A stretch of 64,000 nt of DNA. Source: Utricularia gibba. Taxonomy: Eukaryota; Streptophyta; Magnoliopsida; Lamiales; Lentibulariaceae. The notes below the pieces were generated by a model that ran no database searches, was not told the origin of the DNA, and saw only the letters and a list, made by a program, of their open reading frames with translations. The DNA is taken from NCBI GenBank assembly GCA_002189035.1, contig CM007991.1, forward strand, positions 3,596,001 to 3,660,000. Reading direction: 5' to 3'. The stretch's first letter is position 1, and each line of letters begins with the position of its first letter. Positions 38,029 to 42,746 of this stretch are shown here, one piece after another. The position numbers were made by a program, and so were the translations under genes.

Positions 38029-39150
38029 TCACATACAGTACAAGCAGAAGGTGAAAAAAGCAGCAATGCTTCCAAGGATGCACAGCTTGTCTAACCTGTT
38101 CTCGTACCGCATCTTCTCCTCCTTGAGCTCGCTCTGAACTTTGGAGTACAAATGGCAAGATTCCAGTGCCGCACTGTAGTCCTTGCTACGAGGGCAGCTC
38201 AGCGCTTCATTCAGGACGACAAGGCTGTTACGACCATTGACATGGGATCCTTCCATGTCTACCAGCTGCATACTGAGTTCTGTCAAACTGAGCACTGTCT
38301 GCGAGCCTTCGTTTTCTGTGAGAGCCACTCTGAACTTCATCATGAGAATGCACTCCACTGCTTGGCATGGGAGAATGTCTTTTGCAGGGAGGATGGAGCC
38401 GAATCGTATCAAGAAATCTCTTTCAGTTGGCCAATGCCTCTGACCTCCAACGGGGCTCCAGCTTGAGAGATTAGCAGCCTTCTTGGTTCTTCTGTTGACG
38501 AGGATCCAGCTCAGCCTGATCCCATCTCGAAGCTCTCGCCATAGCTTTCCATCTTTTCTTTCTTGCTCCAGGGACCAAATCGAGGGAAGCCCTTCTGAGG
38601 GTGATAGTGTGGCTTCGTCTGAATGATCATCTTCTCGAGCAGAGTAGGCAAGAAGGTCGATCCGAAAAGGGCAGCTGTAAAACCATCCATTTGAGCCGTT
38701 GGCATTGGGAATGCCCCAGAGAACCTTTGAACACACTGCTTTTTCTTTGTATCTGACATCCACTACAGAGACAAAATCAGATGGTGAAATGTTGTCAAAC
38801 TCATCTTCATCAAAGCAACCCACGAAATCATCCAATTCTTCAGGGTAGTCCGAGTACTCTCTCAACTGAAACTCCTGCACCCCCTTGTTCACTATGAGGG
38901 GAAAACAGTCTGCAAAAAATTTTTTGAACCCTCCAATGGAGCAGATCATATTCTTGACATCATCCCGGTTGGTTGAAGGCCACATAGATGAACACACATT
39001 TTCCCATAGTCTTTCTTCTTTGGAGATAGAATAGAAAGTTTCACATGCACAAGCAGCAGTAGCCAAAGTAGCTCCATCCAGACGCTTAAGTATGTCATAA
39101 CAGAGGTCAGTGCTCAACGAACTCATGATATCAGTGAACAAAACGGGCAT
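38029..39150 (-). CDS. F-box protein with C-terminal membrane segment (At2g27310-like)
   Basis: Single coding exon of 373 residues. The F-box is at the N-terminus (LSTDLCYDILKRLDGATLATAACACETFYSIS, then ERLWENVC), which should bind SKP1 in an SCF ligase. The middle has conserved WFYSCPFRIDLL and LSWILVNRRTKKAANLSSW blocks of this plant F-box subgroup. The final 20 residues (ILGSIAAFFTFCLYCM) are hydrophobic and could anchor the protein in a membrane. The frame extends three codons further upstream but without an ATG; a CTTGCAG acceptor just before it suggests a 5' UTR intron. Substrate unknown. It is convergent with the FAF gene. Confidence 0.85.
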   Translation of the reverse strand: MPVLFTDIMSSLSTDLCYDILKRLDGATLATAACACETFYSISKEERLWENVCSSMWPSTNRDDVKNMICSIGGFKKFFADCFPLIVNKGVQEFQLREYSDYPEELDDFVGCFDEDEFDNISPSDFVSVVDVRYKEKAVCSKVLWGIPNANGSNGWFYSCPFRIDLLAYSAREDDHSDEATLSPSEGLPSIWSLEQERKDGKLWRELRDGIRLSWILVNRRTKKAANLSSWSPVGGQRHWPTERDFLIRFGSILPAKDILPCQAVECILMMKFRVALTENEGSQTVLSLTELSMQLVDMEGSHVNGRNSLVVLNEALSCPRSKDYSAALESCHLYSKVQSELKEEKMRYENRLDKLCILGSIAAFFTFCLYCM

Positions 39151-41391
39151 TATCTGCAAGTGCGTGCCAAATGGAAATCCTGAATAAATCCAACTGAGAA
39201 GAAGATCACAAAATAGAAAGCCTAAGACAGCAAAGGTGGTTGACCCAATTCCTTAGGATGTGGAGGAAAAAAGTTTGATTCCCACAAGTGACATCTATCT
39301 GAGAAACCTGTGGTGTCTGGTTTCCTTCCTAAAAAATAAATAAAGAAATAGCATTAATCATGATTTAACACCACAGGAATCCAAGATTCCCCTGTGCCAG
39401 TAACTCGTCTTGGTTAAAGAACAGATCTTTCGTGCAACAAATGAAGGTTAGCAGAAAAATCTACGAGTGAATCTGTGCAATAATCACTCATTGCGCGTTT
39501 ACGCCGCGCGTAAAAAAGAAGCATTCACCTCTCACAGTCGGCGACTTGACGAAAACAAAAAGAGAGAAAAGCAAAAGGGGCACCTTCTCCTTCACCAAAA
39601 AATCCAATAACCCAGAGCAAGAGCGGCAAGTTCACCCGCACACCAACATTTCGAGCAAAAAATACACTAAAATTCCATAACATCCAAAAACAACCCAGGA
39701 AAGAGGCCTCGAAGATACGTGAGAAGGGAGCCAACAGTACCTGAAAGAAGACAAAACTGCACAGAAGAGTTTCTGGGCATTGACCTGAACGCCGAGAAGG
39801 GCTCACAATTGAGTCAAAAGCGAGACAATGGTGACGAGTCAATCTCAGGAATTGCAGCCTCCCACGGAGGAAATTCTTCTCCTTTTGAGGGGCCCCGACT
39901 TTTTCTGCTCTGATATTTCTCAATTCTCTTTCCTCCGGCCGCCCATTTCTCACTTCTTTTCTACAAAAAATTAAAAAAAAAGAAAAACATTTTTTTTTCA
40001 ATTAATAAGATGAAGCATATTGTAAAATATGTTATAAATTTAATATTGTAATAATATTAAATATTATTGAAACTATTGCATTTCAAAATGATCATCTCCA
40101 CTTTTTATTATATGTATTAACATAAAATATTCTTATGAGACAAAATTGGGCCCATGGTCTTCTTGGATTCTATCTTTTTTTTTTAAATATTTCAAAAAAA
40201 AAAAAGTTTAAAAAAACATTGTTTTAATAATTTTTTTTATGTTTTGACCTAGTGACCATCATATACATTGATTACGAACATGGTAAGAAATACGTTTAAA
40301 TAGAATGACTTTTTTGATCTTATGTGAGATATTTTTTTAAAAAATAAGAATGTAAAATTATGAAGATTGGATGATTAAAATGTAATATCATATAAAAATA
40401 ATATGAATCTTAACATTTAGTATTAAAGTCAAAATTGGACATATGCCAATAGAAGTACAAAGACACTATTGCCTAAACGTGTAATAATGTCAACTAGGTA
40501 CCTAGTGATGATATCATATATTGGTTATAAATAAAGGAAAAATTATATTTAAATAGAGATAATCTTATGTGATTAATTTTTCTTAAAGAAAATAACATAA
40601 AATTGTGATAATTAAGTATTTAAAAGTATAATATCATATAAGTAGAACATAATTGATAACAAGGATTATAAAAATGATCAATTTTCTCTCACACATATCA
40701 ACATATTGTGTAGATTTTTTTATCTAAATAAGGGGATGATGATGAGAGAAGTTGATTTCTCAATCAATGACCTAATCAAGCAAAACAATAAAAGTCAATG
40801 GATTTAATGGGATGGGGCCCTGAGGGATAAGCACAATGTCTTCGCCATGTCATGGGCCCGATGTGCATATGCCCCAACTAAAAGCATTTAATATTTTTTT
40901 AGTAAAAAAGAAAAAAAACCTACTCAATTATTGTGATGATGATGACGTGAGATCTCGACAGGTGGACGGTTGCTAATTAGTCATGCGAAAAGGCCCTCAG
41001 TGAGAAAAAAAAAAAGCTAATCCGGGGCGGGCCCAAAGCGGGTAGCGGGCTTATTGGGTCCGTTTGGATACTTCATGGGCCTCCAGCGCCCTTTTACAGA
41101 ACTGGCCCAAAAATGCACATATTTGACTCTGTACACGGCGGACCTGTCTTCACCGGCGAGGCGAAGATGGCCGTAATCGGGACCCTCGTTACTTCCCAGG
41201 TGTTCGCCGGAGAGTGTGGGTATTTGAGGGTGAGTGATTGCGAGTAACATGATGATTTCTGTTGGATTGCAATGGAGGAAGAAGATATGAATTGAGCAGA
41301 GATTGGGGGGCTTTTACAAAAACTGATCGGATACAAGAAACCAGCCTGCGTCTAAACCCTAGGATCTACTGTACAAGGGAGGAGCGTCCCG
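39151..41391. other. F-box 5' region and AT-rich spacer
   Basis: 39160-39960 is probably promoter, 5' UTR and 5' UTR intron of the F-box gene. 40000-41000 is AT-rich. Two diverged copies of a 110-bp block (about 40295-40405 and 40545-40655) share ATCTTATGTGA and TAATATCATATAA. 41000-41391 is the 3' flank of the DVL gene with GGCCC-type boxes; no other gene is seen. Confidence 0.4.
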
Positions 41392-41505
41392 TCATTCATG
41401 CCAGCAGAGGAGAAGAAGAGCGCATCTCCAGACAATGTAAAGGCGAGCCTTGCGCTGTCTAATCCCATTCCTCATGCTTCTCCCACTCGACAAAACCGAA
41501 GCCAT
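41392..41505 (-). CDS. DVL: DEVIL/ROTUNDIFOLIA-FOUR-LIKE small peptide
   Basis: A 38-codon frame (37 residues) starts at ATG 41505. The C-terminal half reads KARLYIVWRCALLLLCWHE, matching the DVL/RTFL signature of RaRlYI..RC...L.CW. The N-terminal half is short, Ser/Arg/Gly-rich and variable, as usual. These plant-specific plasma-membrane peptides restrict polar cell proliferation when overproduced and shape leaves and fruits. A TATATAA box on the same strand lies at 41617-41611, about 106 bp before the ATG, giving a plausible single-exon gene. A variant feature is Trp-Arg before the Cys, where many members have Arg-Arg. It is at the short end of the family's length range. Confidence 0.8.
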   Translation of the reverse strand: MASVLSSGRSMRNGIRQRKARLYIVWRCALLLLCWHE

Positions 41506-41610
41506 CTTCCTTCTTCTTCCTTTTCGACACAACAAGGACTCACTGTGAACACCAATGGAGGGAGGCAACCTGCAGTGCTTGTGCTGCTGGTATTCGTCGG
41601 GGTGGGCTGC

Positions 41611-41617
41611 TTATATA
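41611..41617 (-). promoter_or_regulatory. TATA box of the DVL gene
   Basis: TATATAA on the minus strand, about 106 bp upstream of the DVL start codon, flanked by GC-richer DNA. Confidence 0.6.
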
Positions 41618-42746
41618 GCACTGGGAATGAATGATTAGAAAGACAGACACAGCAGCCCCTGTCTCGTTCTCTGGATGATGACCATGTTCATATGTTCCGG
41701 CGGTTGAGGGACACAAATCTCCAATCCCATCCACTGAATTTGGACTCCACTGCGGCGGAGCCGGCGGATGCACGTGGCGCCTCCTTGCCGTGTCCCATTC
41801 GGCCGACCAGACACACCACCACCCCTATGGGACACGGGGAGAGTTGGAGTGTAGTGAGACAGGAATCCAGAGCCACCAATGGGAGCTGCACCCCCACGTG
41901 CGTACAGTGCAGGTCACCACACCACCCGATCGTGTATCATTACAGCTGTGTATCAATCATTATGCTTGCCATGGGATGAAGATGATCAAGATGGCAACAC
42001 GTATAGCTTCTCCCCGGGATTAGGACACTGGAGATGATGAGGCCACGTGAGGCTGTTGTGCTGTATAGGTACACATCATTTGGAAGCATTCAAAAAGTTT
42101 AGAATATAATTGTAATTACGAATTATTTAAAAACTTCGTAAATTTTAAATTCTAATGTTATTGCCAAGCAATCATCAGCACAATGCAGGGAATTTTGTCA
42201 GCATTTGCATTCTTTACAGTACCAGGTTTGCTAATAATGTTACAGCAATCTAGCAAGTAAAAATCATATGACTGGAAAAGGAAAAAGGAAAGAGTTCATA
42301 GCAGGTGATATATTACAGTAACCTAGAAGCAATCTGTCAATGAGGATGGTAGACTGACAGACTGACAGACAAGACAGACCGATCCCTTCATTTACAGAAG
42401 GCAAATATTTCTGAGGGAGAGAATACAGCACCTAGAGGCAGGTGTGGATGACATCATGGAAGTTACCAATACCATAACGAACATGTGGTCCTGGCTTGGT
42501 TCATTGACCCACACCAGTTAAAAAAAAAACATCTCCCAACTGCCAAACCACCAAAATCTGAACTTCAGTTCAAGCTCCAGCACAAACGAAAGACATGGGA
42601 TCAAACGTGGAGAGGGAATTGTTACCTGAGAAGCTGGAAAAAACCGGAGATCACCTAGGCCTCCAGTAATCAGAAGCTGAAATGCACAAGAAACCGGAGA
42701 TCAGTTATGGGGAAGAAAAAGGAGGTCAAAAGCTAACATAAAAAGG
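41618..42746. other. DVL upstream region and HUA2-like 3' flank
   Basis: 41618-42030 is GC-richer and probably DVL promoter; short frames on both strands look random. 42060-42180 is AT-rich. 42180-42746 holds the HUA2-like 3' UTR, possibly with an intron, and a (GACA)n-type run at about 42350-42378. Confidence 0.4.

Follow-up and report, generated by a model that had tools for sequence, protein, structure and literature searches.

Does a minus-strand frame of 37 codons, in the 64-kb stretch of DNA analysed here (the window), encode a growth-regulating peptide of the RTFL/DVL family, and if so, by what means might that peptide act? Read from 41505 to 41392, the frame comprises 37 codons and a stop, and its product, MASVLSSGRSMRNGIRQRKARLYIVWRCALLLLCWHE, contains the signature RLYI..RC..LLCW to which the first-pass annotation had drawn attention, or, in its exact reading, RLYIVWRCALLLLCW. 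That annotation had also suggested comparing the 37 residues with the DVL profile of Pfam, and the comparison bears it out, since hmmscan returned one family, DVL (PF08137), at 33.4 bits (curated cut-off, 19.6 bits) and E = 3.8e-8, with peptide residues 16-34 spanning the whole 19-position profile (1-19). A six-frame search of the genome (100.09-Mb assembly, 516 contigs) found the window DVL segment at C3:3637404-3637460 with E = 1.1e-5, and the two E values together exclude chance for the coding match. The family is defined by a conserved C-terminal RTF domain of about 30 residues and a variable N-terminus; residues 9-37 of the window peptide align with its paralogs at 53-64% identity, while its N-terminus is divergent. 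With 37 residues the peptide is small, 3 residues under the 40-144 aa of the Arabidopsis members (PMC4408365), and the remark that its frame falls below common ORF-length cut-offs is true, and nearly as true of these known members. In its N-terminal segment, MASVLSSGRSMRNGIRQRK, inspection by eye showed no hydrophobic core; known RTFL/DVL peptides are non-secreted, and the RTF domain by itself suffices for their overexpression phenotype (PMC4408365).

The frame and the elements upstream of it are listed in Table 1. The TATA box that had been described as good is real: TATATAAG, at 41617-41610 and 105-112 bases upstream of the ATG, occurs just once in the window, both strands counted. The start codon is the first AUG past this box and has a strong context (AAG-ATG-G, with A at -3 and G at +4), no leader ATG being present in the last 80 nt and none being visible between box and start codon; were transcription to begin about 30 nt past the TATA box, the leader would measure about 80 nt. 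A TATA box is likewise present in two of the three closest paralogs, 53-58 nt ahead of the likely start. Within 700 nt downstream of the gene the canonical AATAAA is absent, a signal often missing from plant genes.

Table 1. Features of the DVL/RTFL locus, in window coordinates.
Feature	Position	Strand	Basis or remark
DVL/RTFL peptide CDS, single exon, stop included	41392..41505	-	Translation, Pfam DVL, paralogs, nonsynonymous below synonymous differences
Core RTF/DVL motif RQRKARLYIVWRCALLLLC, residues 16-34	41404..41460	-	Pfam alignment limits
Cys34 codon, aligned with S-acylated Cys42 of Arabidopsis ROT4	41404..41406	-	Motif position
TATA box TATATAAG	41610..41617	-	Sole window copy; first base 112 nt upstream of ATG
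G-box CACGTG	41771..41776		271 nt upstream of ATG
G-box CACGTG	41895..41900		395 nt upstream of ATG
G-box CACGTG	42044..42049		544 nt upstream of ATG

Eleven DVL loci lie above the cut-off genome-wide, window gene (L011) included, and the paralogs measure about 43-112 aa when counted from likely starts. Grouped by eye, they comprise ROT4-like copies (L002, L003, L006), a pair ending in KWKK (L005, L008), single types (L001, L010), and four short copies with the string YI-x-WRC, namely L004, L007, L009 and the window gene. The ROT4-like copy L002 (1395-1590) is peculiar in that its frame is open across the whole domain without an in-frame ATG ahead, and an out-of-frame ATG stands just before a G run; the cause may be a frameshift, initiation at a non-AUG codon or a minor error in the assembly. 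The three other WRC copies, which are 64% (L009), 55% (L007) and 53% (L004) identical to the window peptide, share with it the YIxWRC..LLLC core, an end just past the motif, a single exon and upstream G-boxes. They are 43-45 aa long whereas it has 37, with about 5 residues fewer before the core, between RSM and IRQRK, and L007 and L004 end in CCND where the window peptide ends in CWHE. Neither L009 nor L007 has neighbour genes in common with the window gene within 20 kb, and a whole-genome-duplicate partner was accordingly rejected; the text of published papers yielded no sequence matching the WRC hexamers. Over 23 gap-free C-terminal codons, compared between the window gene and these three paralogs of the same genome, pN was 0.15-0.19 and pS 0.40-0.65, with pN/pS below 1 in every case; Fisher tests on rounded counts gave p = 0.03, 0.02 and 0.0007, values that come from few sites and are not mutually independent, all in one direction.

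The WRC copies also stand apart in their upstream DNA. Within 1 kb upstream, CACGTG occurs three times in L004 and in the window gene, twice in L007 and once in L009, making 9 in 4 kb for these four genes, whereas the 7 kb upstream of the other seven DVL genes contain none. The hexamer has a rate of 0.19 per kb in 144 kb of comparison DNA, where no 1-kb stretch outside the window DVL promoter holds three. By a Poisson estimate, 9 in 4 kb would arise with a probability of about 1e-7, a post hoc figure given that the first G-boxes were spotted by eye, and one to be read with the caveat that G-boxes may generally be denser in promoters than in the comparison DNA. PIF4 and PIF7 occupy the G-boxes of Arabidopsis RTFL16, 17, 18 and 21 (PMC10613268), so that the finding fits a control already known for part of the family and is not new. 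We tentatively suggest, as a possibility rather short of an even chance, that the WRC-type DVL genes of this genome constitute a separate regulatory group, whose clustered G-boxes would link light or shade (through PIFs), ABA or other G-box signals to BSK-dependent growth, the ROT4-type genes being controlled otherwise.

On the opposite strand, an overlapping frame of 78 aa (41398-41634, plus strand) was rejected as a gene; it is uninterrupted in the window, but stop codons interrupt it in each of the three WRC paralogs (L009, L007, L004), and Pfam gave no match for it. A transposon or repeat origin of the DVL locus was rejected as well, since the 1-kb region has no second copy at the DNA level in the genome. 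The nearest larger frames lie on either side: a minus-strand frame of 407 codons (38029-39252) with an F-box-like domain (PF12937) is located some 2.1 kb downstream of the DVL gene, and a minus-strand exon series from about 43.0 to 47.5 kb reads by eye as a HUA2-like gene, three tested exons of which gave no Pfam match.

What, then, is the locus? A frame that resembles DVL by chance, without being a gene, would fit the mere 37 codons and the antisense frame that overlaps them, but the E value over the whole genome, the paralog alignment that extends past the 19-residue profile, and the lack of Pfam match and of conservation in that antisense frame have already refuted it at sequence level, leaving it a negligible probability. 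Profile match, paralogs and codon conservation agree with the DVL/RTFL identity first proposed from the letters, and the locus is a real DVL/RTFL gene, an ordinary, added member of a well-known family. Judged by its sequence it is also probably functional. A copy that has recently decayed or fallen silent, with its frame still open and its expression or need lost, would account for a window peptide that ranks last among the four WRC members both in length and in score (33.4 vs 37.5-43 bits) and lacks about five residues found in its paralogs, and so many paralogs could make it redundant; yet nothing has been lost from the frame, the start codon, the signature residues or the TATA box, every comparison gives a pN/pS below 1 and the G-box cluster is present, all of which makes such decay distinctly improbable.

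A functional gene could also act independently of BSKs, the receptor-like cytoplasmic kinases bound by known family members, if the WRC type had a partner unlike that of ROT4 and RTFL18. By motif register, we take I36, I39, R40, M43, L46, L47, H50 and D51 of RTFL18 to correspond to L22, V25, W26, A29, L32, L33, H36 and E37 of the window peptide, a mapping that uses the positions given in PMC10613268. RTFL18 binds BSK3 and BSK6 and lowers brassinosteroid signalling and PIF4, and it has been modelled as one long helix whose R40 contacts N367/E368 of BSK3 through a hydrogen bond (PMC10613268). That this arginine is a tryptophan in all four WRC members, and that M43 gives way to A29 in the window peptide, speaks for a different partner. 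On the other side, the hydrophobic residues I36, I39, L46 and L47 have L22, V25, L32 and L33 as counterparts and the other modelled contacts are kept, H36 and E37 standing for H50 and D51, so that the hydrophobic and end contacts appear mostly retained and the arginine replaced. Moreover, with R at position 26 in place of W the Pfam score is 31.2 bits instead of 33.4, which indicates that tryptophan is common at this position; W26 is a normal family variant, and the idea that the tryptophan of 'VWRC' is an oddity was rejected. W26 may nonetheless alter partner choice, and the BSK contacts may differ. About six full loci with BSK-type TPR domains place the partner class in this genome. On balance we regard BSK-independent action as unlikely. 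As a separate observation, a DVL gene lies near a BSK-type kinase gene on two contigs, L007 and L024 at about 38 kb on C321 and L004 and L025 at about 48 kb on C1, and the two pairs probably represent a duplicated block; DVL peptides bind BSKs, but the linkage may be due to chance.

The reading we prefer, and hold with considerable confidence, is that the window contains a functional, intronless nuclear gene for a presumably non-secreted RTFL/DVL peptide with a membrane-held, BSK-binding and growth-damping part, by analogy with ROT4 and RTFL18. Factors that bind G-boxes, for instance PIFs, may drive transcription of the gene. Its product is expected to fold as one long helix, as modelled for RTFL18, and AlphaFold2, run on the single sequence, gave one helix over residues 9-36 with pLDDT 82-86 over the motif, at moderate overall values (mean pLDDT 69, pTM 0.33) and with a lone helix constituting a weak test; a solved-structure match for the peptide was sought and none was found. 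By motif register, Cys34 presumably occupies the position of ROT4 C42, and S-acylation is predicted there. A cysteine at this position occurs in most RTFL/DVL members, some being without it. In ROT4, S-acylation at C42 brings the peptide to the plasma membrane and favours BSK5 binding (PMC10897394), and plasma-membrane location, BSK binding and short organs on overexpression are known in Arabidopsis members. On the model of ROT4 and RTFL18, S-acylation at Cys34, and possibly at Cys28, would hold the window peptide on the inner face of the plasma membrane, where it would bind the C-terminal domain of BSKs; brassinosteroid or other receptor-kinase signalling would be damped, and polar growth and cell proliferation reduced. 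In sum, organ growth is probably restrained by a peptide lying against the inside of the cell membrane.

With this locus, a redundant family of growth-regulating peptides gains one well-supported member in a very small plant genome, where loss-of-function tests may be easier because there are 11 DVL copies instead of upwards of 20, and the G-box split between DVL subtypes offers a modest lead on subtype control. It further allows one to test whether frames of fewer than 40 codons escape automatic annotation in the genome. The gene was possibly overlooked; DVL is a curated Pfam family, 188 members of which were counted across 22 species in one survey (PMC4408365), and homology-based annotation can therefore find such genes.

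Among known systems, the closest parallels besides the WRC paralogs are two Arabidopsis peptides. ROT4 (RTFL/DVL16, AT2G36985) has the same core RTF motif, cysteine at the S-acylation position (C42/C34) and following tryptophan as the window peptide, but it is 53 aa long, bears a C-terminal tail and has an unlike N-terminus, and in this genome it is L002, L003 and L006 that resemble it rather than the window gene. RTFL18/DVL1 (AT5G16023), placed in Clade 4 (Subgroup 4) by Guo et al. (2015), is a short RTFL peptide that, like the window peptide, ends at the conserved C-terminal domain with an acidic last residue after a histidine (HD in RTFL18, HE in the window peptide) and combines a long helix with a cysteine at the S-acylation position. 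The two differ in length (51 vs 37 residues) and in having R40 and M43 in RTFL18 where the window peptide has W26 and A29; they agree in their upstream G-boxes, which in the RTFL18 promoter are bound by PIFs.
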